In this document: piece after piece, positions 370 to 26,345 of the stretch
Position numbering within the stretch: the first letter of the stretch is position 1
Layout of the letters: each line of letters opens with the position of its first letter
Assembly (NCBI GenBank): GCA_944391585.1
Contig: CALXUD010000008.1
Location: 1-36,622 of the forward strand
Reading direction: 5' to 3'
DNA length: 36,622 bases
Source: an uncultured Alphaproteobacteria bacterium
GTDB lineage: Bacteria; Pseudomonadota; Alphaproteobacteria; CAAHEQ01; UBA3637
Notes under the pieces: model-generated
Database searches by the model: none
Told to the model about the DNA's origin: nothing
What the model saw: only the letters and a program-made list of their open reading frames with translations
Translations under genes and position numbers: made by a program

Positions 370-398
370 TTTACAAATGCTTTGAATGTGGCTACATT
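370..398 (+). promoter_or_regulatory. Sigma-70-type promoter for the DAHP synthase leader
   Basis: The -35 is TTTACA (370-375) and the -10 is TACATT (393-398), separated by 17 bp. Transcription should begin near 405-406. That is at the ATG of the leader ORF, so the leader peptide would be translated from a leaderless mRNA. Confidence 0.55.
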
Positions 399-405
399 TT
401 AAAGT

Positions 406-486
406 ATGAGAAACGATGAATTAACATATTCAGCACAAAAATTCCGCAATTTTGCGGGTTTCCCTTTTTATTTTTATTTCGCCTAA
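406..486 (+). CDS. Phe/Tyr-rich leader peptide upstream of DAHP synthase
   Basis: A 26-codon ORF ends at TAA 484-486, 75 bp before the DAHP synthase start. Six of its last 14 codons are Phe (both TTT and TTC) and two are Tyr; it ends FPFYFYFA. An upstream Tyr gives three in all. Leader peptides loaded with the codons of the pathway product are the hallmark of ribosome-mediated attenuation (known for pheA, trp and similar operons). Placing one before the first enzyme of aromatic biosynthesis fits that logic. No Shine-Dalgarno precedes the ATG, but it coincides with the predicted transcription start. Caveat: T-rich DNA yields Phe and Tyr codons by chance. No known family is claimed. Confidence 0.6.
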   Translation: MRNDELTYSAQKFRNFAGFPFYFYFA

Positions 487-494
487 AAGGCGAA
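444..494 (+). promoter_or_regulatory. Candidate attenuator hairpins in the aro leader
   Basis: Two perfect hairpins are visible. CCGCAA/TTGCGG (444-449 with 452-457) lies inside the leader ORF and is followed by the T-rich Phe/Tyr codons. TTCGCCT/AGGCGAA (478-484 with 488-494) spans the leader stop codon and is followed by a T-rich stretch to about 526. They could act as pause and terminator structures. I could not define a clear mutually exclusive antiterminator, so the switch is inferred. Confidence 0.45.
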
Positions 495-561
495 CAGATT
501 TCTCATATTTTTATTTTATTTTTCGTATTTTGGTTTCAATTTTTAATAAAAAGGTTTTGTT

Positions 562-14948: not shown

Positions 14949-15581
14949 CTATTGGCTAACCCAAATAACACGTGTCATCCATAAAACTTCATTTGCTTTT
15001 AAATGAATATCCGGATGTTGAGGGTTGAGTGATTTTAAATCAACATGTAAGGCCGTTTTTTTTATGAGTTCTTTTACCATTACTTCTCCGGTTGTTAATT
15101 TTACGACAACTCTGTCTCCTTTTCGGACTTCAGAATCAGGTGCTACAATCAATTTATCGCCATCCCGATAAGCCGGTTCCATGCTGTTCCCAGATACTTC
15201 CAAAGCGTACACGTTTTTGTTTATCATAAAGGGAAAATCAATCCCATCCCAATTATCCGTCGACAAGGGATAGCCGAAATTGTCAAAATATCCATCTCGG
15301 CCTGCTTGTGCTAAACCCAGTAACGGAATTGTGAAATGATGTGGTTCCGATTCGCCGGCTAGCTCCATAAATTCAAAAATAGTGGTGTTTGTGGCTTCCA
15401 GAACTTTATTCATGCTTTCAGTGGAAGGCCATCGTTTCCGACCATCGCTTCCCAAACGTTTGGATTTATTAAAGCTGGTTGGGTCTAAACCGGATTTGAT
15501 TGCCATTGCGGAAAGAGAGAGACCTTTTGTTTCTGCTAAATTGTCAATGCCGCGCCAAATTTCTGAATAAGTGAGTTGCAT
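14949..15581 (-). CDS. S24-family autocleavable repressor (LexA/CI-like)
   Basis: 210 residues. The N-terminal part is a helix-turn-helix of the type found in many alphaproteobacterial chromosomes (LSLSAMAIKSGLDPTSFNKS, RWPSTESMNKVL). The C-terminal half is a LexA-type serine protease: cleavage site candidate Ala93-Gly94 (AQAGRD), Ser133 (SGNSMEP) and Lys170 (VMVKEL). The Ser-Lys spacing of 37 equals that of LexA, so RecA-stimulated self-cleavage is expected. It is divergent from the phage-derived cassette and probably represses it, with release on DNA damage. Its promoter has TTGACA/TATGGT, and a palindrome shared with the XRE gene at the other end lies in its leader. Confidence 0.88.
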   Translation of the reverse strand: MQLTYSEIWRGIDNLAETKGLSLSAMAIKSGLDPTSFNKSKRLGSDGRKRWPSTESMNKVLEATNTTIFEFMELAGESEPHHFTIPLLGLAQAGRDGYFDNFGYPLSTDNWDGIDFPFMINKNVYALEVSGNSMEPAYRDGDKLIVAPDSEVRKGDRVVVKLTTGEVMVKELIKKTALHVDLKSLNPQHPDIHLKANEVLWMTRVIWVSQ

Positions 15582-15601
15582 GTTCGTTCCTTTTTTTTAT
15601 A

Positions 15602-15615
15602 CATATGAAAATATG
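15602..15615. promoter_or_regulatory. Palindromic operator candidate, left copy
   Basis: CATAT-GAAA-ATATG, a perfect 5-bp inverted repeat with a 4-bp spacer, lies between the S24 transcription start and its ribosome-binding site. The same arms and spacing occur at 26353-26366 in the XRE promoter. It probably binds one of the two flanking regulators. Confidence 0.5.
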
Positions 15616-15633
15616 CTCTTATTAGTTGAGTTT

Positions 15634-15662
15634 ACCATAACACAGAAAAAATATCCTGTCAA
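15634..15662 (-). promoter_or_regulatory. Promoter of the S24 repressor gene
   Basis: On the minus strand TTGACA (15662-15657), 17-bp spacer, TATGGT (15639-15634). Transcription should start near 15627, about 45 nt before the ATG. Confidence 0.6.
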
Positions 15663-15711
15663 TAGGAATTTTTTCATAAAAAGGGATTGACATATAGTTT
15701 TTTATGTATTA

Positions 15712-15733
15712 GTTCTTGTTTTGTTCTTGTTTG
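15712..15733 (+). repeat. Tandem 11-bp direct repeats upstream of the cassette
   Basis: GTTCTTGTTTT (15712-15722) is followed at once by GTTCTTGTTTG (15723-15733). The 11-bp period is about one helical turn, as in tandem activator half-sites. CATAAT (15737-15742), a fair -10, follows directly, and the first cassette gene starts at 15771. A TTGACA at 15687-15692 has no good -10 at the normal distance. Confidence 0.45.
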
Positions 15734-15770
15734 GAACATAATTATTGCGTTTATTAAGAGGAGTTTATGG

Positions 15771-16130
15771 ATGAAAAAAAAGCAGTTTTATCAGAATTTG
15801 GTTGATAATCGGGAATATATTCCTTTTGAAAATTCAGAAGAAGCCTGGTTATGGTGTTGTCTATGTGAAAGTCTTGGAAATCAAAGAGCAAAAGGCTCAT
15901 CCGGGCGAATCGCTCGGCCATGCGAATCGTCTGACATTATTTTATCGGTTAAAAAATTGGTTCAAGCAGGGCAGCTCAATCAAAATCATTTAAAGGTTTT
16001 GTCTAAGTATGGACTCTTGCAAATCCCGCCGCATGAAAATTTTGGGCAGCCCCCTAGAGAATGCTCTTTGTGGCGAGAAGGGTTGAAATTGTTGGAAAAT
16101 ATTTTAAGACTGAAAGGAATTGTTGCATGA
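15771..16130 (+). CDS. Conserved-looking protein of unknown function, first gene of the cassette
   Basis: 119 residues from the ATG at 15771, which has AAGAGGAG upstream; the longer frame would add a hydrophobic stretch without a ribosome site. The middle reads FENSEEAWLWCCLCES, then RIARPCESSDIILSVKKL and HLKVLSKYGL, and the end SLWREGLKLLENILRLKGIV. The pattern looks like a small all-helical soluble protein with three to four cysteines. I do not know its function. Its stop overlaps the next start (ATGA), so the pair is one operon in front of the virion genes and could be regulatory or packaging-related. Confidence 0.65.
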   Translation: MKKKQFYQNLVDNREYIPFENSEEAWLWCCLCESLGNQRAKGSSGRIARPCESSDIILSVKKLVQAGQLNQNHLKVLSKYGLLQIPPHENFGQPPRECSLWREGLKLLENILRLKGIVA

Positions 16131-16513
16131 AAAAAACAGGATTGGGATATCGTTATCCATTTGCAATTGTCGGTTTTGGAGGACGTCGGACAAAATGGTG
16201 GATGCGCTTTTTAAAAAAAGGTTTTTATCATTGTGTGTTGGTTTTAGGAAATGGATATGAATGGATTTTTATTGATCCGTTGGCACATTATACAGATGCA
16301 ATCATTCTACGAGATATTGATGTGATTTCCTTTTTGAAAAAGAACGGTTATCAGGTTTTGACGGCACAACCCGAAATTCCGCAAGATACACGGATGCGTT
16401 TTCGTCCCTATACATGTGTTGAAACGGTGTTGCGGTTTTTAGGTATAAAAAGTCCTTTTATTTTAACACCTTATCAACTTTTTTGTTTTTTATCACAAAA
16501 AATAGGAAAATAA
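16127..16513 (+). CDS. Possible permuted papain-like (NlpC/P60-related) cysteine peptidase
   Basis: 128 residues. A histidine in FYHCVLV (His35) is followed by an acidic strand FIDPLAHYTDAIIL and, much later, by a cysteine in YTCVETVLRFLGI (Cys97). Histidine before cysteine is the order seen in circularly permuted NlpC/P60-like folds. That would suit a virion-associated peptidoglycan or amide hydrolase. This is inferred from motif layout only. Its start overlaps the preceding stop, and the strong virion-operon promoter begins 4 bp after its own stop. Confidence 0.5.
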   Translation: MKKTGLGYRYPFAIVGFGGRRTKWWMRFLKKGFYHCVLVLGNGYEWIFIDPLAHYTDAIILRDIDVISFLKKNGYQVLTAQPEIPQDTRMRFRPYTCVETVLRFLGIKSPFILTPYQLFCFLSQKIGK

Positions 16514-16516
16514 TCC

Positions 16517-16545
16517 TTGACAAAGGAAAAAAAGTATGGTATAAG
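16517..16545 (+). promoter_or_regulatory. Strong promoter of the virion operon
   Basis: A perfect -35, TTGACA (16517-16522), 17-bp spacer and TATAAG (16540-16545, five of six). Transcription should start near 16552, 109 nt before the portal start codon, and it meets a terminator on the way. Confidence 0.75.
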
Positions 16546-16560
16546 GAGACTCAGTTAGCA

Positions 16561-16578
16561 GCCAGAACTGTATCTGGT
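16561..16578 (+). promoter_or_regulatory. Leader hairpin before the portal gene
   Basis: GCCAGA (16561-16566) pairs with TCTGGT (16573-16578) around ACTGTA. It lies near the 5' end of the leader RNA, just ahead of the terminator, and may bind a factor or alter readthrough. Confidence 0.4.
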
Positions 16579-16584
16579 GTTTTT

Positions 16585-16617
16585 AAAGGCAGTCCGATAA
16601 AGGGCTGTCTTTTTTTT
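16585..16617 (+). terminator. Intrinsic terminator inside the virion-operon leader
   Basis: An 11-bp stem, AAAGGCAGTCC (16585-16595) with GGGCTGTCTTT (16602-16612), and a T8 run lie between the promoter and the portal gene, only 43 bp before its ATG. Alone it would give an RNA of about 65 nt. Portal expression must therefore depend on readthrough or antitermination. Confidence 0.8.
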
Positions 16618-16660
16618 ATCGCAATTTAACGTTGTGTTTTATTAAAGGAGAAAAATTTAA

Positions 16661-18169
16661 ATGCCTGATATCCAATTACTGTATCAACAATACCAAAAAG
16701 CAAAATCACGGCGTGATTTATGGGAAAATGTGTGGAAGGAATGTTATGAATATGCTTTGCCACAACGGGAAAGTGTTTTTAGTGAATCCACCAGCAAGCA
16801 AAACAATTTGTTTGATGGGACAGCGCCCGATTGTGTGGATCAGTTATCGGCTTTGATGCTCAGCGAAGTGACCCCACCTTGGATGCGCTGGTTTTCTTTA
16901 ACGGCCGGAACGGATTTGACGACAGAAGAAGTGCAAAGTGTTCAAGGGGGATTAGATAAAATTTCCGAAAACCTGCAAATTCATTTTGATCGCTCGAATT
17001 TTGCAATGGAAGTGCATCAATGTTATTTGGATTTAATTACGGTTGGAACGGCTTGTTTATTATTTGAGGAGGCTCCGATTGGATCTTCATCGGCTTTTCG
17101 TTTTACATCCATTCCGTTATCGGAAGTGTGTTTAGATGAAGGAGCAACCGGTCGATTAGATATTACATTCCGCCGTTCTCAAATGGATTTTTTAACCTTG
17201 AAAAATCGATTTCCACAAGTTGAGTTTTCGGATCGTTTTGTCAAGCAAGCTAAAGAAAAAGAAATTAAATTTCAGGTCATTGAATCTGTTCAGCCGCGGT
17301 TGAAAGGCGGATATGATTATGTGGCCTTTTTGGAACCCGATAGCCAGTATGATTCCATAAAGGGATTGAATCCTATTTTAAAAGAAGGTGTTTTTGAAAC
17401 CTCTCCCTTTATTTCATTCCGCTGGCTGAAAGCACCGGGCGAGGTTTATGGGCGTTCTCCCGTGATGAAAGCATTGCCTGATATTAAAACAGCAAACAAG
17501 GTGGTGGAATTAATTTTAAAAAATGCCACAATCGCTGTCACGGGTATTTGGCAGGCCGAGGATGACGGAGTTTTAAATCCGGCGAATATCCGCTTAATGC
17601 CCGGTGCGATTATTCCAAAAGCGGTCGGATCAAAAGGTTTGACACCTTTGGAGGCGCCGGGAAAATTTGATGTATCCCAGTTAATGATTGATGATTTGCG
17701 TTCGCGGATTCGTCATGCCTTATTAGGCGATAAATTAGGACAGTTGGATGATGAGCGGATGACGGCAACAGAGGTATTGGAGCGCTCAAATGAAATGGTT
17801 CGAATTTTGGGAGCAACCTATGGGCGGCTTCAAACCGAATTATTGATGCCGATGGTGGATCGAGCGGTTTCTATTTTACGTCGCCGAGGAGAAGTTCCTG
17901 AAATTTATATTGATGGTCGACTGTTAAAAGTATCCTATAAATCAACACGCGGGGATGATCAGGCACAAAAAGACGCTAACAATGCACTACTTTGGTTAAA
18001 TTCAGTTTTACCGTTAGGTCAAGAGGCATTGCAGACGGTTGATATTGCAGCATTTGTTCATTGGTTAGGAGATAAATTAGGGGTTCCGGCGGATATTTTT
18101 AAATCTCAAATTGCACCGGTTTTACAGTTCCCGACATCTTTAGGAGGAATGGATGCTGCAGAACATTGA
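16661..18169 (+). CDS. Head-tail connector (portal) protein, T7 gp8 type
   Basis: 502 residues. The protein matches the podovirus portal family: an N-terminal AKSRRDLWENVWKECYEYAL followed by DGTAPDCVDQLSALML, then the hallmark APGEVYGRSPVMKALPDIKT around 265 and RMTATEVLER near 365. Twelve copies normally form the ring through which DNA is pumped and to which the tail attaches. Length fits T7 gp8 (536). AAAGGAG precedes the ATG. The gene overlaps the next by 17 bp. No frameshift or decay is visible. Confidence 0.93.
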   Translation: MPDIQLLYQQYQKAKSRRDLWENVWKECYEYALPQRESVFSESTSKQNNLFDGTAPDCVDQLSALMLSEVTPPWMRWFSLTAGTDLTTEEVQSVQGGLDKISENLQIHFDRSNFAMEVHQCYLDLITVGTACLLFEEAPIGSSSAFRFTSIPLSEVCLDEGATGRLDITFRRSQMDFLTLKNRFPQVEFSDRFVKQAKEKEIKFQVIESVQPRLKGGYDYVAFLEPDSQYDSIKGLNPILKEGVFETSPFISFRWLKAPGEVYGRSPVMKALPDIKTANKVVELILKNATIAVTGIWQAEDDGVLNPANIRLMPGAIIPKAVGSKGLTPLEAPGKFDVSQLMIDDLRSRIRHALLGDKLGQLDDERMTATEVLERSNEMVRILGATYGRLQTELLMPMVDRAVSILRRRGEVPEIYIDGRLLKVSYKSTRGDDQAQKDANNALLWLNSVLPLGQEALQTVDIAAFVHWLGDKLGVPADIFKSQIAPVLQFPTSLGGMDAAEH

Positions 18170-18386
18170 TCAGCTTTTTGCCCGTGTGTTTAACACATCA
18201 TCGGGAAAAGAACTTATGGCGTATTTGCGTTCAATAACTTTAGAACGGGTTTTAAGTGCAGATGCGTCTGATGCCGCCATTCGTTTTTTAGAAGGGCAGC
18301 GTTTTTTAGTGCGTCAGATGGAAAATTTTACTCAACGCGGAAGTGTGGCGTACTCAACTATGGAAAAAGGAGAAACAGATGGTTGA
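18153..18386 (+). CDS. Bbp19-like phage protein
   Basis: 77 residues: LFARVFNTSSGKELMAYL, then SADASDAAIRFLEGQRFLVR. This layout (a short helix, F-x(4)-G, then the EGQRxLV helix) resembles the small Bbp19-like proteins encoded next to portal genes in podoviruses. Their function is not established; they have been placed with head-assembly genes. It overlaps portal by 17 bp and scaffold by 8 bp, so the three are tightly coupled. Confidence 0.7.
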   Translation: MLQNIDQLFARVFNTSSGKELMAYLRSITLERVLSADASDAAIRFLEGQRFLVRQMENFTQRGSVAYSTMEKGETDG

Positions 18387-19092
18387 AAAAAATAGAGAAG
18401 CTGTTTTGGTTTCAAAGGCCGAATCGGCTCAAAATGAATTGTCTGAATCAATGGCAATTCCCAGTAAATTTAGAAAACAGGATGGAACAATTAATGTGAT
18501 GGAATTGTTAAAATCCTATTTGGCTTTAGAAAGAAAATTGGCTGAACGCAGTCAAAAAAACATTTTGCAAAATCAAAAAGGCTTCATGCCGGCTAGTGCG
18601 GATGAATATCAGATTGATTTAAAAGCATCCGGCTTAACGATTGATCCGGAAATTAACCGGCGTTTGTTTGAATTAGGTTTTACGCAAGAGCAAGTTCAAG
18701 CAGTTTATGACTTGGCAGCTGAAAAAGTTGTGCCGGTGATTCAGCAATTGGCAGCAGATTATCGGACGGATCGGGAATTAGCTGATTTAGAAAAAGAATT
18801 CGGCGGTGCCGATCGGTTTAATCAAGTGGCACGTCAAATTTTCTTATGGGGACAACAAAATTTGGATTCAGATGTGTTCCAAGCCTTGTCTTGCTCCAAA
18901 GAAGGGATTTTGACAATGTATAAAATGATGAATTCAAACGAACCTGTTCTTTTAAAAGAAAAAGCAAATCAAAGAGAGGTTGTGAGTGAGGAAGAATTGC
19001 GCAAAATGATGCAAGATCCCCGCTATTGGAAGCAAAATGATCCGGCTTTTGTGAAGAAAATTGAAGACGGGTTTAAAAAATTATATGGATAA
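18379..19092 (+). CDS. Capsid assembly scaffold protein
   Basis: 237 residues from the ATG at 18379 behind AAAAGGAG. The protein is acidic and helical, with many Glu, Gln and Lys residues. A conserved-looking segment LDPEINRRLFELGFTQEQVQ-like (here TIDPEINRRLFELGFTQEQV) and AEKVVPVIQQLAADY lie in the middle, and a basic end (KKIEDGFKKLYG) fits scaffolds that bind capsid through a charged tail. Position between portal and capsid is that of T7 gp9. Assignment rests on position and composition more than on a motif. Confidence 0.75.
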   Translation: MVEKNREAVLVSKAESAQNELSESMAIPSKFRKQDGTINVMELLKSYLALERKLAERSQKNILQNQKGFMPASADEYQIDLKASGLTIDPEINRRLFELGFTQEQVQAVYDLAAEKVVPVIQQLAADYRTDRELADLEKEFGGADRFNQVARQIFLWGQQNLDSDVFQALSCSKEGILTMYKMMNSNEPVLLKEKANQREVVSEEELRKMMQDPRYWKQNDPAFVKKIEDGFKKLYG

Positions 19093-19144
19093 TCTTTTCA
19101 AAAGACCCATAAAAAGGCGTTAGAAAAAAGGCAGAAAATCTTTC

Positions 19145-19172
19145 TATAACCTTTTATTTTAACAGGTATCGG
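19145..19172 (+). promoter_or_regulatory. Weak promoter candidate before the capsid gene
   Basis: TATAAC (19145-19150) could be a -10. No good -35 lies at 16-18 bp (TTAGAA at 19 bp). Transcription would begin near 19157, just before a terminator-like hairpin. Confidence 0.3.
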
Positions 19173-19200
19173 AATTGTCTTTTAAAAGGCAATTTTTTTT
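19173..19200 (+). terminator. Terminator-like hairpin upstream of the capsid gene
   Basis: AATTGTCTTT (19173-19182) pairs with AAAGGCAATT (19185-19194) and T8 follows. It lies 24 bp before the capsid ATG, the second case in this operon of a terminator just before a gene. It could limit scaffold-to-capsid readthrough or act as an RNA-stabilising 5' hairpin. Confidence 0.65.
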
Positions 19201-19223
19201 ATTAAAAACAAAAGGAGAAAAAA

Positions 19224-20078
19224 ATGTCAGAAACGACAGAAGTCAGTACAGCAATTGATGCGTCTTTTATGAAACATTTTGAAGCAGATGTTCATAATGC
19301 GTATCAACAACAGGGTTCTAAATTACAATCAACCGTGCGTTCTAAAAGCGGTGTTAAAGGGGTTTCCACAACTTTTCAAGTTTTAGGAAAATCCGTTGCC
19401 GGCACGAAAACACGTAATGCTCAAATTGCAACAACTGCCGTAACACATGAACCGGTGGAATGCACATTAACGGATTATTATTCCGGTCAATGGGTGGATT
19501 CATTGGATGAATTGAAAGTGGGTCATGATGAGCGCAAAGCATTGGCTTTATCCGGTGCGTATGCATTGGGGCGTAAAACCGATGATTTGATTATCACGGC
19601 GTTGAATGGCGCGACTCAAACTGTTGGAGAAGCAACAGAGGGATTAACAAAAGCGCGTATTTTAAAAGCCTTTACAACACTGAATAATAATGATGTTCCG
19701 GATGATGGGGAACGGTATGGTTTGGTTTCGCCGGAACAATGGAATCAATTATTAAACATTGAAGAATTCTCTTCTTCCAATTATGTAGGGGAAGCTTATC
19801 CGATGATTAACGGATCTGAAGCTCGTAAATGGATGGGAATTGTTTGGATTATGCATACAGGTTTACCAGCCAGCGGTTCGGACACGACAGCAGCTCATAC
19901 TTGCTTTATTTATCACAAATCCGCAGTGGGACATGCATCGGGACAAGATATTAAAACCGATATTACATGGCACGGTGATTATGCCGCTCATTTCGTGAAC
20001 AATATGATGAGTCAAGGGGCTTGTTTGATTGATCCGAAAGGCGTTGTGAAAATGACGGTTTTGGATAATCCAAGCTAG
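19224..20078 (+). CDS. Major capsid protein (podovirus type, HK97-like fold expected)
   Basis: 284 residues. The N-terminus (FMKHFEADVHNAYQQQGSKL) and the pattern QWVDSLDELKVGHDERKALA with SGAYALGRKTDDLI are characteristic of short-tailed phage capsid proteins of about 300 residues, and the C-terminus ends with QGACLIDPKGVVKMTVLDNP. No decoration domain or proteolytic N-arm is seen. It lies between its own leader hairpin and a terminator, so it may be the most abundant product. The ATG has AAAAGGAG upstream. Confidence 0.9.
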   Translation: MSETTEVSTAIDASFMKHFEADVHNAYQQQGSKLQSTVRSKSGVKGVSTTFQVLGKSVAGTKTRNAQIATTAVTHEPVECTLTDYYSGQWVDSLDELKVGHDERKALALSGAYALGRKTDDLIITALNGATQTVGEATEGLTKARILKAFTTLNNNDVPDDGERYGLVSPEQWNQLLNIEEFSSSNYVGEAYPMINGSEARKWMGIVWIMHTGLPASGSDTTAAHTCFIYHKSAVGHASGQDIKTDITWHGDYAAHFVNNMMSQGACLIDPKGVVKMTVLDNPS

Positions 20079-20089
20079 TTTTTTTATAG

Positions 20090-20115
20090 AGGGCGGTTTT
20101 AAAGCCGCCCTTTTT
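20090..20115 (+). terminator. Terminator after the capsid gene
   Basis: GGGCGG (20091-20096) pairs with CCGCCC (20105-20110) and a T run follows. It stands where T7 has its T-phi terminator after gene 10, and would lower expression of the tail genes. Confidence 0.8.
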
Positions 20116-20136
20116 ATTTTGAATAGGAGTTATAAA

Positions 20137-20706
20137 ATGTCTTTAAATCCCATTCGGTTGTGTTCGGGGGCGTTGGTTAAAATCGGCGCGAATGCAATCA
20201 CATCTTTGGAGGAGGAAACAGCAGAAGCACGTGTGGCAAAGCAGTTATATCCGTTAGTGCGGGATAGTTTGTTGGCTTGTTATCCATGGCGTTTTGCGTT
20301 GATGCAAAAACGGTTGAACCAGCTCCTAGAAAAACCGGTGGCTGATTATCAATTCTCTTATCAGTTGCCGAATGATTTATTACGCATTATTTCCGCCGGT
20401 ACCGGTGAACGTGGTAAAGGGGTTGAATATCGCGTGATGCGAAATCAATTGCATACAAATGTCTCAGAGGTTATTTTAACCTATATTTCAAGACCATATG
20501 AAAGCATGTTTCCGAAGTTTTTTGAACAAGCGTTAGTTGCTGCTTTGGCAGCAGAATTTTGTTTGCCATTAACGGAAAGTACAACGCGTCAAGAGGCTTT
20601 AAAAAAACAAGCGGAAGAGTGTTTTAAACAAGCTAAATTGGTTGACAGCCAGCAAGCTGTTCCATCCGCTTTTCAGGATTTTTCGCTGATTGAGGTGCGT
20701 TCATGA
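20137..20706 (+). CDS. Tail tubular protein A (T7 gp11-like)
   Basis: 189 residues from the ATG at 20137 behind AGGAG. LCSGALVKIGANAITSL, then ARVAKQLYPLVRDSLLACYPWRFA and the later FEQALVAALAAEFCLPLT match tail tube A proteins of podoviruses. In T7 gp11 forms a ring (gatekeeper) beneath the portal. The length is normal (T7 gp11 is 196). It is 21 bp after the capsid terminator, and its stop overlaps the next start. Confidence 0.88.
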   Translation: MSLNPIRLCSGALVKIGANAITSLEEETAEARVAKQLYPLVRDSLLACYPWRFALMQKRLNQLLEKPVADYQFSYQLPNDLLRIISAGTGERGKGVEYRVMRNQLHTNVSEVILTYISRPYESMFPKFFEQALVAALAAEFCLPLTESTTRQEALKKQAEECFKQAKLVDSQQAVPSAFQDFSLIEVRS

Positions 20707-22622
20707 CGAATTTATTTACTTCTAAAACAAATTTTACATCGGGCGAAATTGCACATGATTTATTGGGACGGGTTGATTTACGCGCTTATGAAAATGGGGC
20801 AATGGCATTAAAAAATGTTTTTATTGAACCAACCGGAGGAGTTTATCGGCGTCCGGGATTGAAATATGTGTGTGAGGTTGGTGAATCGGCTCGTTTGATT
20901 CATTTTGATTTAGGTTATTTAAAATCATATTTATTGATTTTAAAAGATGAATCTATGGATATTTATTTAGATGATACATTGATTCAAACGATACAAACAC
21001 CATGGATAGATGAGCAACTTTTTTCCGTTTGTTGGTGTCAAAATTCAGACACATTATTTTTGGTTCATCCAGATGTAAAGCCCAGACTGTTAAAAAAAGA
21101 AGGGGATTCTTTTGTGCTTTCCGAATTCGTTTTTTCAACAGAAAATGAGTGTGTTTTACAGCCATATCATAAATTTTGTGATGATAACATCACTCTTGCA
21201 TCAACGGGATTAGGCGGTTCGGTTAAATTAACGGCTTCGGCAGATTATTTTAATGAATCTCATGTTGGTATGTTATTAAAAATTGCCGATGGGTATGCTT
21301 TGATTTCTTCCGTTCAAGATGCTAAAAATGCCAATGCGACAGTAAAAAAACAATTGGTTGATGATGGGGAGGATGCAACGGCTTTAGAGCCGACACGCTA
21401 TTGGTCTGAGCCGGCTTTCAGTGATGAAAAAGGGTGGCCGGCAACGGTTGCATTTTATCAATCACGTTTAGTATTCGGGGGTTCCAAGAAATTACCGAAT
21501 AATTTATGGTTTAGTGTCAGCGGGGATTTATTCAATTTTGAATTAGGATCTTCTTATGATTCAGATGCTATTGATTTTGGGCTGTTGTCGGATGGAGCCA
21601 ATAAAATTTGTGGGTTATTTTCTGGACGACATTTACAGGTTTTTACTTCAAATTCCGAATGGATGGTATCGGGAGATCCGTTGACACCAACCAGTATTCA
21701 ATTAAAGCGTCAAACGCAAGTCGGATCTTTAACAAAACGGTATGTGCCACCGGTTGGAGTAGATGGTGCAACGATTTTTGCATCCGGTAATGGACGGGAA
21801 ATTCGGGAATTTTTATTTGGTGATTTAGAAGGGGTTTATTTGGCAACGGATTTATCTTTACTAGCTGCACACCTTATTCAAAACCCGATTGATATGGCAT
21901 ATGATCCTCAAAATCGGATAGCCTATATTGTGATGGAAAATGGGCATTTATGCACGTTGACAACATTCCGTTCCGAAGATGTACAAAGTTTTAGCGAGCA
22001 AATTACGCAGGGTGATTTTTGTGCCGTTTGTGTTGTCGGCGAAAAAACATATTTCATTGTCAAGCGATTCGGTCATTATTTTTTAGAAACCTTTGATACC
22101 TCTGTTCAGGTGGATTGCGCTTGTTTATTGGAAAGCGAAACACCAACAACGCAATGGGGATATTTACAGCCATTGGCGGGGCAAACAGTAAAAGTGGTTG
22201 CAGATGGAATTGTGTTGGTTGATGCGCTTGTTTCAGCCAGTGGAGAAATTGAAGCAGATTATCCGGCGCAAAAAGCCTGTATTGGCTTGGGGTATACACA
22301 TTTAGTTGTTCCATTGCCACCCTCTGCCAGCGCTTCCAATGCGATGGCTCCGCTTTCGCAAGTGCGCTTCATCAAAGGAGTATTTCGCTTAATTGACTCG
22401 TATTCCTTGCAAATTGACACAGGAAACGGAGTGCATCAGGAATTGAATTGGCCGTTAAACGGATGTGTTCAAAATACAGATGGCTCCGTGACGGGAGATA
22501 TTGTTGTGCGCGGGCTGGGATGGAACAGACGGCCGACATATCCGCTTTGGCAAATTACGGGTGATTTGCCAAAATTTTTTAAATTGGTATCCGTTACACA
22601 AGATTTAAAGATAGGAGGTTAA
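20703..22622 (+). CDS. Tail nozzle protein (tail tubular protein B-like)
   Basis: 639 residues. The N-terminus FTSGEIAHDLLGRVDLRAYENGA and the phrase FIEPTGGVYRRPGLKYVCEV are the hallmark of short-tail nozzle proteins. The middle has AFYQSRLVFGGSKKLPNNLWFS and RHLQVFTSNSEWMVSG, typical of the beta-propeller part. T7 gp12 has 794 residues; the shorter length is common outside T7. Six copies would form the distal tail tube. No receptor-binding or fibre domain is attached, and no fibre gene follows. It overlaps the previous gene by 4 bp. Confidence 0.88.
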   Translation: MTNLFTSKTNFTSGEIAHDLLGRVDLRAYENGAMALKNVFIEPTGGVYRRPGLKYVCEVGESARLIHFDLGYLKSYLLILKDESMDIYLDDTLIQTIQTPWIDEQLFSVCWCQNSDTLFLVHPDVKPRLLKKEGDSFVLSEFVFSTENECVLQPYHKFCDDNITLASTGLGGSVKLTASADYFNESHVGMLLKIADGYALISSVQDAKNANATVKKQLVDDGEDATALEPTRYWSEPAFSDEKGWPATVAFYQSRLVFGGSKKLPNNLWFSVSGDLFNFELGSSYDSDAIDFGLLSDGANKICGLFSGRHLQVFTSNSEWMVSGDPLTPTSIQLKRQTQVGSLTKRYVPPVGVDGATIFASGNGREIREFLFGDLEGVYLATDLSLLAAHLIQNPIDMAYDPQNRIAYIVMENGHLCTLTTFRSEDVQSFSEQITQGDFCAVCVVGEKTYFIVKRFGHYFLETFDTSVQVDCACLLESETPTTQWGYLQPLAGQTVKVVADGIVLVDALVSASGEIEADYPAQKACIGLGYTHLVVPLPPSASASNAMAPLSQVRFIKGVFRLIDSYSLQIDTGNGVHQELNWPLNGCVQNTDGSVTGDIVVRGLGWNRRPTYPLWQITGDLPKFFKLVSVTQDLKIGG

Positions 22623-22624
22623 AT

Positions 22625-23098
22625 ATGGAAGTTGTTGCAGTCGGGGCTTTGGCAGCCACAGCGGCGTCAACCATTTATTCAAAACGTAATTCTGATATTC
22701 AGAGTAAACAGATTAAAAAAGCAAATGAAGCGGCTCAAAAGTCGTATGATTTAGAAAAAAGACAGGCAGAATTAGCGTTAGATGAACAACGTCGCAAAAA
22801 TTTGAATATTCTGAATCAGCAGCTCTCAACTTACAAAGCACGTTTAGGCGCTGCCGGTATGAGTACAAAACAAGGATCCGGATCAGCTCTTTTATACAAT
22901 ACGGAAAAAGAGCATGATATTGAAGATAAGTATTTGCAAGAGCAGGCGAATATTTCCTTGGAAGCTTTATTAAACGGGATTGAATCTACAAAAACACGTA
23001 ATTTATTAACGTTAAGCTCTTTAAATAATGAGAAGAAAGCTTCCCAATGGAGTTTGTTGACAGATTTAACGTCAGGAACACGTTCGTTATTAAAATAA
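22625..23098 (+). CDS. Internal virion protein (T7 gp14-like)
   Basis: 157 residues. A short hydrophobic N-terminus (VGALAATAASTIYS) is followed by a long, Lys/Gln/Ala-rich helix with heptad periodicity, then SGSALLYNTEKEHDIED. This is the layout of small podovirus core proteins that are ejected first and reach the outer membrane. The large ejection proteins gp15 and gp16 are absent, so the virion, if made, has a minimal core. AGGAGG precedes the ATG 2 bp after the previous stop. Confidence 0.75.
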   Translation: MEVVAVGALAATAASTIYSKRNSDIQSKQIKKANEAAQKSYDLEKRQAELALDEQRRKNLNILNQQLSTYKARLGAAGMSTKQGSGSALLYNTEKEHDIEDKYLQEQANISLEALLNGIESTKTRNLLTLSSLNNEKKASQWSLLTDLTSGTRSLLK

Positions 23099-23116
23099 AA
23101 CGGAAAGGGGAACAAT

Positions 23117-23401
23117 ATGAATGTGTCGGAGGAGCTTTCTTTTATATTGAACCCTGTTTTAAAAAAAATGTTAGTGCAGTATCAGAATTTTTTGGAGCAA
23201 CCGATTTCTTTGGAGGCAAAAAATTTCACAGCATATCACAATGCGTGTAAATCTGTTTTGACTCATATTTCAATTTTGTTGAAATTACTACAAAGTGAAC
23301 AAAACACCTCCAAAGACGAACCGGATTTATTGGCTTTGATTGAACGGGCAAAAGTGCAAACGGCTGATTTGGAGGATGAAATTTATGCCGAATTTGATTG
23401 A
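23117..23401 (+). CDS. Small helical protein next to terminase, possible small subunit
   Basis: 94 residues. All helical and Leu-rich, with an acidic C-terminus (DLEDEIYAEFD). No helix-turn-helix is clear. Position directly before the large terminase, overlapping it by 17 bp, is where a terminase small subunit is expected. No sequence motif confirms this, so it could also be a minor virion protein. Confidence 0.5.
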   Translation: MNVSEELSFILNPVLKKMLVQYQNFLEQPISLEAKNFTAYHNACKSVLTHISILLKLLQSEQNTSKDEPDLLALIERAKVQTADLEDEIYAEFD

Positions 23402-24797
23402 GTTTATTTGGATTTGGAATCAGATTCAAAAATTGTCCATTCCGCGTCATCATGTGAAGATGGCGCGTTTTTTATCCGATTTATGGTTAAAGGCAGAACA
23501 TAAATGGGGCTTGTTAATGGCGTTCCGTAATTCCGGTAAATCTACGTTAGTGGGATTATTTTGTGCATGGGCTTTGTTCATCAATCCGAATGTACGTATT
23601 TTGGTTTTATCTGCTGATCATGGATTGGCCAAAAAAATGGTGCGTAATATAAAAAAAATTTTGGAGCAGCATCCCTTGACGCGTTCATTGGTTCCAGAAA
23701 AAAAAGACGAATGGGCATCAGACCGTTTCACGGTGTGCCGGACTCAAAATTTACGAGATCCGTCCGTTTTAGGACGTGGATTGCTTGCTAACATGACAGG
23801 GTGTCGAGCAGATATTATTATTTGTGATGATGTAGAGGTGCCTAAAACATCTGATACTTCTTTAAAACGGCGTGATTTACGGCAAAAATTGTCCGAATTG
23901 GATTATATTTTAACTCCCGGCGGGCTTATGTTATATATTGGTACGCCACATACACGTCAAACGATTTATGACACCACTTCGGAGGGTTTTTTAAGAGATT
24001 TTCATATTTTGAAAATCCCGATTTTAAATACAAAGGGCCAATCTAACTGGCCGGAGCGTTTCCCATTAGAGCAAATTCAAGCCATTCGAGTTCGCTCCGG
24101 TCCGGCTAAATTTTTAAGTCAAATGATGTTAGAAGCGACATCATTGGAAAAGGCACGATTGAATCCGGATTTTATTCATTTTTATACAGATGAATTGGAA
24201 TACTCCGAATGCAATGGACAAGCTGTTTTAAAGCTGGGGAAGGTAGCACTTCGCTCGGTATCTTGTTTTTGGGATCCGTCATTTGCCAGTTCTGAAAAGC
24301 AGGATAACAGTGTTATTGCGTGTGTATTTTCTGATGAAGCTGGACATTATTATGTGCACCGTATTTTGTATTTAAATGTGCCGCAAGGATGTGAATCAGC
24401 CACTTGGCAATGTCAGAAAGTAGCGGATTTTGTGCGCCAGTATTTTATTCCGGCTGTTCATTTGGAAACAAACGGATTGGGAAAATTTTTACCGGCTGTT
24501 TTGCGGCGAATTATAAATCAAAATCGTATTCCTTGTGCTGTTTTGGAAGAAATTTCAAAACGTAATAAAGCAGAACGTATTTTAGCAGCTTTTGATGCGC
24601 CTTTGGCAAACGGGGCGTTATTTATGCATGAATCGGTTAAGAAAACACCTTTTTTGGAACAAATGAGAGAATGGCGGGAAAATACGTCCGTTAAAGATGA
24701 TGGATTGGATGCGGTTGCTGGTTGTTTATTAAATGAACCCGTTCGGTTAAGTCGATATATCCGTCCGTATCGGGAATATAAAGAATGGAGATTTTAA
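23385..24797 (+). CDS. Terminase large subunit (T7 gp19-like)
   Basis: 470 residues from the ATG at 23385 (GGAGG 9 bp upstream; a longer frame to 23340 lacks one). The ATPase has FRNSGKST (47-54, an atypical Walker A) and IIICDD (Walker B, Asp148-Asp149). The RNase H-like nuclease has the FWDPSF acidic strand, LETNGLGKF, and KDDGLDAVAG near the end. All expected motifs are intact, so the motor should cut and package DNA. It ends exactly where the lysin gene begins. A complete terminase argues against a tailocin, which would lack one. Confidence 0.92.
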   Translation: MPNLIEFIWIWNQIQKLSIPRHHVKMARFLSDLWLKAEHKWGLLMAFRNSGKSTLVGLFCAWALFINPNVRILVLSADHGLAKKMVRNIKKILEQHPLTRSLVPEKKDEWASDRFTVCRTQNLRDPSVLGRGLLANMTGCRADIIICDDVEVPKTSDTSLKRRDLRQKLSELDYILTPGGLMLYIGTPHTRQTIYDTTSEGFLRDFHILKIPILNTKGQSNWPERFPLEQIQAIRVRSGPAKFLSQMMLEATSLEKARLNPDFIHFYTDELEYSECNGQAVLKLGKVALRSVSCFWDPSFASSEKQDNSVIACVFSDEAGHYYVHRILYLNVPQGCESATWQCQKVADFVRQYFIPAVHLETNGLGKFLPAVLRRIINQNRIPCAVLEEISKRNKAERILAAFDAPLANGALFMHESVKKTPFLEQMREWRENTSVKDDGLDAVAGCLLNEPVRLSRYIRPYREYKEWRF

Positions 24798-25208
24798 ATG
24801 GATCAAGATGTTTTAATTATGGCAAAAACTTTATTCGGTGAAGCCAGAGGCGAAGGATTAAAGGGAATTGAAGCCGTTGCTAATGTGATTATCAATCGGG
24901 TAAAACATGCTCAAAAGGTTGGCTCTTTTTGGTGGGGAAACACCATTCAAGAAGTGTGTCAAAAGCCGTTTCAGTTTTCTTGTTGGAATGAAGGAGATGC
25001 TAATCGTTTACTCTTGGAAAAAGACTTATCGGGTGATTTGATTTTCGGAATTTGTGAGCGAGTAGCGCGTCGGGCAATAAAAGGGTTGTTGCCGGATTGT
25101 ACAAACGGCGCTACGCATTATCATCACAAAGCTATTCATCCTAAATGGGCGCATGCTGCTGTGCCTTGTGCCGAAATCGGAAATCATTTGTTTTATGCAC
25201 AGGTATAG
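24798..25208 (+). CDS. SleB-family cell-wall hydrolase (endolysin candidate)
   Basis: 136 residues, a single hydrolase_2 domain: ARGEGLKGIEAVANVIINRV with the catalytic Glu in GEARGE at about 15-18, then FQFSCWNEGD and NGATHYHH. SleB-type enzymes cut the glycan backbone of peptidoglycan. No signal peptide is present, so export needs a holin or a lysis helper. Its start follows the terminase stop directly. It is the enzymatic member of the small lysis set that follows. Confidence 0.88.
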   Translation: MDQDVLIMAKTLFGEARGEGLKGIEAVANVIINRVKHAQKVGSFWWGNTIQEVCQKPFQFSCWNEGDANRLLLEKDLSGDLIFGICERVARRAIKGLLPDCTNGATHYHHKAIHPKWAHAAVPCAEIGNHLFYAQV

Positions 25209-25216
25209 GAGGAAAT

Positions 25217-25522
25217 ATGCGATATCATCAACTGGAGTTGGGAAAATTGATGGCTCAAGTAGAAGCATTGCAAAAACAATTGACCGATATTAAAAAAGAT
25301 GTATCTGTCAGTAAAAAGCAAATTACGGATTTGCATGACGAGCTTATCAATTTCATGTCTCAGGTTCAAACGAAAAATGTGTGTCAGACACTACATGATA
25401 AATTGGGAAAAGAATTTATCCCTCGTGTAGAACTGGCTCCCATTCGGGCGGTATTAAACGTTATCGTTTTGACAACGGCAACGGCAATTTGTGCCGCTAT
25501 TCTTAATTTAATTTTAAAATGA
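25217..25522 (+). CDS. Small coiled-coil protein with C-terminal membrane anchor
   Basis: 101 residues from the ATG at 25217 behind AGGAGG; an upstream frame has no ribosome site. A helical, charged first half (KKDVSVSKKQITDLHDEL) is followed by a membrane helix at the C-terminus (VLNVIVLTTATAICAAILNL). Its place after the lysin suggests a holin or spanin-like lysis role. The family is unknown to me. Confidence 0.65.
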   Translation: MRYHQLELGKLMAQVEALQKQLTDIKKDVSVSKKQITDLHDELINFMSQVQTKNVCQTLHDKLGKEFIPRVELAPIRAVLNVIVLTTATAICAAILNLILK

Positions 25523-25537
25523 GGAAGGAAATAAAAA

Positions 25538-25717
25538 ATGATTGATTTTATTATGACGAACTTAAATGATTTATTAATTGCCGTTTCATCCATTGTGACC
25601 GGGGCCAGCGCAATTTGCGCCATTACCCCCAATGGAAAAGAAGACAATTTCTTTGCAAAAATAAAGAAAATTTTAGACGTATTGGCGTTAAATGTCGGCA
25701 ATGCTAAACGTGCTTAA
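25538..25717 (+). CDS. Small membrane protein, holin-like
   Basis: 59 residues, ATG 25538 behind AGGAAGGA. A weakly hydrophobic helix (LLIAVSSIVTGASAICAITP) is followed by KIKKILDVLALNVGNAKRA. Similar short proteins occur in lysis regions of alphaproteobacterial podoviruses, as far as I recall; this is not verified. It overlaps the following mini-gene by 17 bp. A holin or antiholin role is plausible. Confidence 0.65.
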   Translation: MIDFIMTNLNDLLIAVSSIVTGASAICAITPNGKEDNFFAKIKKILDVLALNVGNAKRA

Positions 25718-25772
25718 AGTTTTGGCTCTGCTTCGAGCAATCGGGCCATTTATTAAACGATTTTTTAAATAA
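25701..25772 (+). CDS. 23-residue cationic amphipathic peptide
   Basis: ATG 25701 to TAA 25772, in a different frame overlapping the end of the previous gene. The sequence starts MLNVLKVLALLRAIG and ends FIKRFFK, giving a net charge near +5 with hydrophobic and basic residues on opposite faces of a helix. This is the composition of membrane-active peptides. No clear Shine-Dalgarno exists, so coupling to the overlapping gene would be needed. It may be a lysis peptide or chance; the terminator follows 10 bp later. Confidence 0.4.
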   Translation: MLNVLKVLALLRAIGPFIKRFFK

Positions 25773-25781
25773 GAAAAAGAA

Positions 25782-25816
25782 GCGGCGTGGTTCTCTTGGA
25801 CACGCCGCATTTTTTA
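25782..25816. terminator. Bidirectional terminator closing the cassette
   Basis: GCGGCGTG (25782-25789) pairs with CACGCCGC (25801-25808). A T run follows on the plus strand; on the minus strand a run of T lies beyond the stem too. It ends both the cassette and the convergent XRE gene. Confidence 0.8.
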
Positions 25817-26299
25817 ATTTTCAAGGATGTTATTTTCCGGTTTTGAAGCGGATAAAGACAAAGATTTAACTAAATCTAAAATATTTTTTAAGACTTTCGG
25901 ATCTTCTATGCTGGTATAATAACGAATTAACTCCAAAACATCTTTTCGTGTGAAAATGCTTGTATCAAAAGTATGTGTTCCTTCACAAAAACTCATTCCA
26001 TGATGAACATTGCGGGGGCTTTTGCTTTTTGTTGAATCATCTAAATCTTCATAGAAAAAGCCGACAGTTGTTTCTAAAACCTGAGAAATATCCCACAGCC
26101 GAGAAGCACCGACTCGGTTCAGACCGCGCTCATATTTTTGAACTTGTTGAAAAGTAACACCTAATTTTTCGGCCAGTTTTTCTTGACTAATCCCTAGCAT
26201 TGTTCGTCGTAAACGAATCCGTGCCCCGACATGGACGTCAATCGGATTAGGTGTCCCATCTGATAATCTGCCGCGAATGCTTCCTCCTTTTTTCATCAT
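25814..26299 (-). CDS. XRE-family transcriptional regulator
   Basis: 161 residues from the ATG at 26299 (AAGGAG upstream; a TTG at 26329 is less likely). The N-terminal IDVHVGARIRLRRTMLGI is followed by the helix-turn-helix SQEKLAEKLGVTFQQVQKYE and NRVGASRLWDIS (about 22-80), a type very common in alphaproteobacterial chromosomes. The C-terminus is helical without a known ligand domain and no cleavage motif. It converges on the cassette terminator. Its own promoter contains the CATAT-N4-ATATG palindrome shared with the S24 gene, so cross- or autoregulation is likely. Confidence 0.87.
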   Translation of the reverse strand: MMKKGGSIRGRLSDGTPNPIDVHVGARIRLRRTMLGISQEKLAEKLGVTFQQVQKYERGLNRVGASRLWDISQVLETTVGFFYEDLDDSTKSKSPRNVHHGMSFCEGTHTFDTSIFTRKDVLELIRYYTSIEDPKVLKNILDLVKSLSLSASKPENNILEN

Positions 26300-26345
26300 G
26301 ATTTTCTTCTCCTTGTGGATGAAATACAACTATTACGATTACCCT

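Follow-up and report, generated by a model that had tools for sequence, protein, structure and literature searches.

A conserved phenylalanine-rich leader upstream of a DAHP synthase gene in uncultured Alphaproteobacteria: a probable Phe-tRNA sensor in genomes with no detectable route from DAHP to chorismate

The class I DAHP synthase gene aroG in the analyzed window, a contiguous stretch of 36,622 nucleotides from an uncultured alphaproteobacterium, is preceded by a short, phenylalanine-rich open reading frame that, whatever its regulatory output, probably acts as a ribosome-read sensor of Phe-tRNA. The leader ORF (MRNDELTYSAQKFRNFAGFPFYFYFA; positions 406-486 on the + strand, as for all features of the leader region and aroG given below) comprises 26 codons from ATG to TAA, among them six Phe and three Tyr codons, and ends 75 bases before the aroG start. 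The Phe/Tyr codon run F-P-F-Y-F-Y-F occupies positions 460-480 and belongs to the C-terminal sequence FPFYFYFA; reading the sequence together with its translation agrees with the first-pass annotation of this DNA, which had described a 26-codon ORF with this ending. The T-rich DNA that it had placed between leader and aroG is present at about 508-545.

This aroG was found in three of the 43 genomes searched within the order: the window's own, G028 (locus L004; 78% aroG identity to the window) and G058 (locus L005; 74% identity); the order is a gut-associated one, its related records being MAGs from the ruminant gut under the title Alphaproteobacteria bacterium. Among the three species, synonymous divergence of aroG has reached saturation (dS 1.5-2.2) and dN/dS amounts to 0.08-0.13; purifying selection therefore acts on the gene, and flanking DNA free of selection would be expected to have diverged. 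At the same position before aroG, L004 nevertheless carries a leader ORF of 15 codons (MKNKQFHFFIFNFFA) and L005 one of 17 codons (MKQKNTFYFNKFFFFFA), so that the reading frame has been kept despite indels. Phe accounts for 6 of 24 internal codons in the window, 6 of 13 in L004 and 7 of 15 in L005; given the frame, an open frame with so many Phe codons would arise with probabilities of 0.018 and 0.001 in the relatives. All three ORFs end in GCC-TAA (Ala-stop), and the same hairpin, termed P2 here, holds the stop codon in its loop; thus the conservation in relatives that had been named as a check on the original proposal is found, as a Phe-rich ORF and a stop-codon hairpin, in every genome with this aroG. 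The regulatory signal had been proposed to consist of both Phe and Tyr codons; the Phe part stands, since Phe codons are kept in all three leaders, and the Tyr part falls, since the L004 leader has no Tyr codon, which makes Phe the likely signal. All comparisons of the leader are made among these three sequences, no further aroG-bearing species of the order having been found.

Hairpin P2 (478-494) has the form TTCGCC-TAAAA-GGCGAA in the window (arms 478-483 and 489-494) and is kept in all three species as TTCGCC-TAA-GGCGA; its folding energy is reached in 3, 30 and 44 of 1000 shuffles in the three species, the first value applying to the window, where the hairpin over the leader stop codon had already been recognized in the first reading. 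When 42 genomes were scanned, the pattern TCGCCTAAN(1-2)GGCGA matched solely at the three aroG leaders, and the confident matches of a covariance model built from the 3' half of the leader were the same three (E values of 7e-9 to 1.5e-11). Occurrence of the element ahead of further genes in the order was considered and rejected; the few further covariance matches (E values of 0.15-0.7) fell in T-rich DNA, with no leader ORFs before amino-acid genes. A second helix, P1, had been missed previously. Its 5' arm (GTATGAGAAA; 404-413) holds the leader start codon and pairs with a 3' arm (TTTCTCATAT; 499-508) that includes GATTTYTYATATTT, conserved in all three species, and that lies directly before a T-rich tract (508-525), a possible, non-canonical termination site. 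The P1 arms of L004 (ATATGAAAAA/TTTTTCATAT) show a two-sided change from G-C to A-U, and L005 has a weaker version with a G-U pair and one mismatch; in the three-sequence alignment 29 of 30 P1 cells are paired, and of the changes one is compensatory and two are one-sided. For P1 and P2 together, 96% of the cells are paired in this alignment of three, versus 42-58% for slid versions. The P1 duplex energy is matched by 3 of 1000 shuffles in the window and 4 of 1000 in L004, and is ordinary in L005 (438 of 1000); in the covariation control on three sequences, 167 of 500 shuffles scored as high, which is not statistically meaningful, and the apparent conservation of P1 pairing across the three species is suggestive only. 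Another hairpin, inside the ORF (CCGCAATTTTGCGG; 444-457), occurs in the window only; a role as protector was rejected, as it is missing from both relatives. Rfam covariance models at gathering score matched tRNA alone in the window, with no leader family and no T-box, and likewise tRNAs alone in L004, L005 and 38 further aroG loci.

A candidate promoter, TTTACA-17-TACATT (370-398), lies 7 nt upstream of the leader ATG and matches the consensus at 9 of 12 positions; taken alone it does not exceed chance, and the region upstream of the leader yielded 12 promoter-like matches against 5.9 expected. Neither L004 nor L005 has a consensus promoter at the window's spacing before the leader ATG. No Shine-Dalgarno sequence precedes the leader ATG in any of the three species, a pattern that fits leaderless initiation without demonstrating it. 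The earlier prediction of a transcription start that renders the leader leaderless is accordingly divided: the shared lack of a Shine-Dalgarno sequence agrees with it, while the promoter is at chance level and unmatched in the relatives. In the window, the mRNA would have its 5' end at the leader ATG or in its immediate vicinity.

If the leader works through transcription termination, the steps might be as follows. With plentiful Phe-tRNA, the ribosome would reach the leader stop codon and depart; P2 and P1 could then form, shutting off the leader start and placing a folded structure immediately upstream of the T-rich tract, and RNA polymerase would presumably halt before aroG. With scarce Phe-tRNA, the ribosome would be expected to stall in the Phe codons; its footprint, together with another ribosome queuing at the start codon, could hold P1 and P2 open, and aroG would be transcribed. 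A ribosome-read Phe-tRNA sensor with this particular output is a tentative reading, placed somewhat below even chances. Termination had been the output proposed in the first-pass annotation; this part of its proposal is weakened, as a scan that does detect the terminator in the Ruminococcus-type locus L024 found no canonical intrinsic terminator from leader to aroG in the three species, and termination would have to depend on the AT-rich start-codon helix P1, which alone stands before the T-rich tract where a terminator would be. No conserved antiterminator pairing was found among the three leaders either, and a classical 1:2/2:3/3:4 attenuator in the window leader was rejected on both counts.

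Control of translation would be about as good an output as termination through an AT-rich start-codon helix. Here the Phe-codon stretch would act as an anti-Shine-Dalgarno sequence: once the ribosome has passed, the aroG Shine-Dalgarno sequence (AAAAAGG; 548-554), whose predicted pairing partner in the ribosome's absence is the Phe-codon stretch, would be sequestered and aroG translation silenced; a stalled ribosome would free it, and P1 would prevent re-initiation on the leader. In the window, CCTTTTTATT (463-472) within the Phe/Tyr codon run and AATAAAAAGG (545-554) are perfectly complementary, giving 10 pairs; in the folding model, the Shine-Dalgarno sequence has a partner probability of 0.97-0.98, and a ribosome positioned over the Phe codons abolishes the pairing. 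In L005, 14 consecutive pairs link the Phe-codon region to the Shine-Dalgarno sequence, and none of 1000 shuffles is as strong. The pairing is not apparent in L004, however, where 344 of 1000 shuffles are as strong; moreover, TTT and TTC Phe codons are inherently complementary to A-rich Shine-Dalgarno sequences, and the pairing by itself leaves the conservation of GATTTYTYATATTT unexplained. As an explanation of the locus, translational control is possible, with odds below those of termination. Termination and translational control each find support in two of the three species; the conservation of this P1 3' arm throughout, and the precedent of Sinorhizobium meliloti trpL, which uses termination and starts at its own ATG (PMC7298713), would give termination a slight preference.

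It is improbable that P1 and P2 instead constitute a structured RNA element, recognized by a ligand or protein or serving as a processing site, in which the ORF is incidental. The pairing potential of both helices is conserved, and the failure of all known Rfam families to match leaves room for a new element; against this, the frame has stayed open and Phe-rich through indels that leave 26, 15 and 17 codons, the position of the stop codon within the P2 loop is identical throughout the three species, and the stems are small for an aptamer. The F/Y density of the window leader alone is poor evidence for a sensor, the DNA being T-rich: when the window's upstream DNA is dinucleotide-shuffled, a cluster as dense appears in 15 of 1000 cases, and F/Y-dense ORFs arise in 1.5-7% of shuffles when each upstream region is taken separately. 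That the leader is nothing but a chance product of T-rich intergenic DNA, as those frequencies for single regions might suggest, is very improbable given the same arrangement in three species at saturated synonymous divergence and a hairpin pattern seen nowhere else in 42 genomes.

The gene downstream of this probable Phe-tRNA sensor (aroG; 562-1593; TIGR00034, PF00793) encodes a class I DAHP synthase with intact conserved catalytic motifs. In the phylogenetic tree, the three proteins group in a single clade (100/100) that sits on a long stem, most of the surrounding DAHP synthases being Clostridial. aroG seems to be a solitary gene in all three genomes, and the loci share no neighborhood apart from a tRNA gene or apparent tRNA end upstream; a tRNA gene lies directly upstream in L004 (2784-2859, Lys-CTT) and L005 (2711-2787, Val-GAC), and the other neighbors differ. 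In the window, an apparent tRNA 3' end occupies positions 1-21 at the contig start, upstream of aroG. A perfect 58-bp direct repeat (8-65 and 223-280, 215 bp apart), consisting of an apparent tRNA 3' end (CTGCGCGCCCACCA) and a terminator, resembles a duplicated attachment site, the contig beginning within the tRNA of the first copy. Farther downstream, at 14949-26329, a run of ORFs resembles a prophage, with repressor-, portal-, capsid- and terminase-like proteins and a large tail-like protein, as judged by eye from the translations.

What aroG is for in these bacteria is less obvious. Chorismate synthase was detected in none of 42 draft genomes of the order (control 14 of 14), and neither was DHQ synthase (0 of 42; control 11 of 14); EPSP synthase was not found above the cut-off in any of the 42 (control 14 of 14), its weaker matches presumably lying at the level expected for MurA, and shikimate dehydrogenase was absent from the nine genomes of the order that were searched (control 14 of 14). 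The three aroG-bearing genomes are 84, 98 and 90% complete, and it is unlikely that all four steps were lost from all three drafts through assembly gaps. A second isozyme in the form of a class II DAHP synthase was looked for and rejected (0 of 42 genomes); the other PF00793 matches, of about 275-310 aa and present in nearly all genomes, are by their length and ubiquity probably KdsA rather than DAHP synthase. A prephenate dehydratase domain occurs in G028 (L087), G058 (L086) and G057 (L085), all without detectable chorismate synthase and the last without aroG, so that two of the three aroG-bearing genomes have an orphan prephenate dehydratase; the proteins of L085 and L087 have about 185 aa and no other Pfam domain. 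A Phe leader before these pheA genes was sought at L085-L087, with no convincing candidate. Genome G000 (contig C6, 18270-18485; L091), likewise without detectable chorismate synthase, encodes a protein of 286 aa that begins with a chorismate mutase type II domain at its N-terminus and has no domain assigned to its C-terminal part.

Where the steps from DAHP to chorismate are undetectable throughout the order, it becomes doubtful that a biosynthetic operon is being regulated by its end product, and the original proposal that Phe and Tyr govern DAHP synthase as end products is called into question on this ground. An intact, selected and Phe-linked DAHP synthase in bacteria seemingly unable to take DAHP to chorismate is a contradiction, and one of more interest than the leader itself; it could point to a new use of DAHP, to a pathway shared between organisms, or to genes missed in the draft genomes. 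One conceivable resolution, plausible in outline and with odds clearly short of even, is that the Phe-tRNA-sensing leader governs a DAHP synthase whose role is not phenylalanine synthesis within the same cell, either because DAHP is used otherwise or because the pathway is split, with a host or neighbor carrying DAHP to chorismate or prephenate.

Leader peptides with Phe codons that sense Phe-tRNA are familiar from the Escherichia coli attenuators pheL-pheA and pheM-pheST; these precede other genes, have leaders led by Shine-Dalgarno sequences and form classical 1:2/2:3/3:4 hairpins, in contrast to the window leader with its lack of any Rfam leader match. Classical Tyr/Phe attenuators were found before aroG itself in four Ruminococcus-type loci, in the upstream regions L024 2785-2963, L029 2042-2220, L056 2764-2937 and L048 2800-2968, none with an Rfam match. 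Their leader ORFs (33-35 codons, of the type MSNHMNFTYSYFYF...YYY) contain SYFYF and YY/YF motifs and are followed by a terminator of 12-14 bp with a T-run; in L029 and L048, the folding model replaces the terminator with an alternative structure when a ribosome is placed on YFYF. The Ruminococcus-type DAHP synthases belong to the same subfamily as that of the window (57-58% identity) but to a different aroG clade, and their terminators and alternative antiterminators contrast with the window leader, which has no canonical terminator. Inheritance of the leader together with the gene from Clostridia was rejected, since the Ruminococcus leaders look different and belong to a distant clade; an independent origin of the two leader groups seems more likely.

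Among published systems, the leader ORF trpL/rnTrpL of S. meliloti lacks a Shine-Dalgarno sequence, is transcribed from its ATG and works by termination (PMC7298713); it shares with the window an alphaproteobacterial leader ORF without a Shine-Dalgarno sequence, the start at the ATG being only a presumption in the window, and differs in its Trp codons, its target trpE(G) and its ordinary terminator. The closest parallel by description, as distinct from sequence, is aroR-aroF of Corynebacterium glutamicum, a known producer of aromatic amino acids, in which a Phe-Tyr-Phe leader peptide directly before the gene controls DAHP synthase, as proposed for the window, and aroF expression is reported to be raised under Phe limitation and indifferent to Tyr (Neshat et al., 2014; PMC11802643, PMC4046766); such a response to Phe and not to Tyr is what codon conservation in the window group would predict. 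With this published case and the four Ruminococcus-type attenuators, the initial remark that such regulation of DAHP synthase would be out of the ordinary was overstated: the principle of regulating this enzyme through a leader peptide has precedents, and the window leader is a variant of it. What it adds is a lineage and a layout, with no Shine-Dalgarno sequence, the start codon in a helix, the stop codon in a hairpin loop and no canonical terminator; together with the Ruminococcus cases, it suggests that leader-peptide control of DAHP synthase arose several times.
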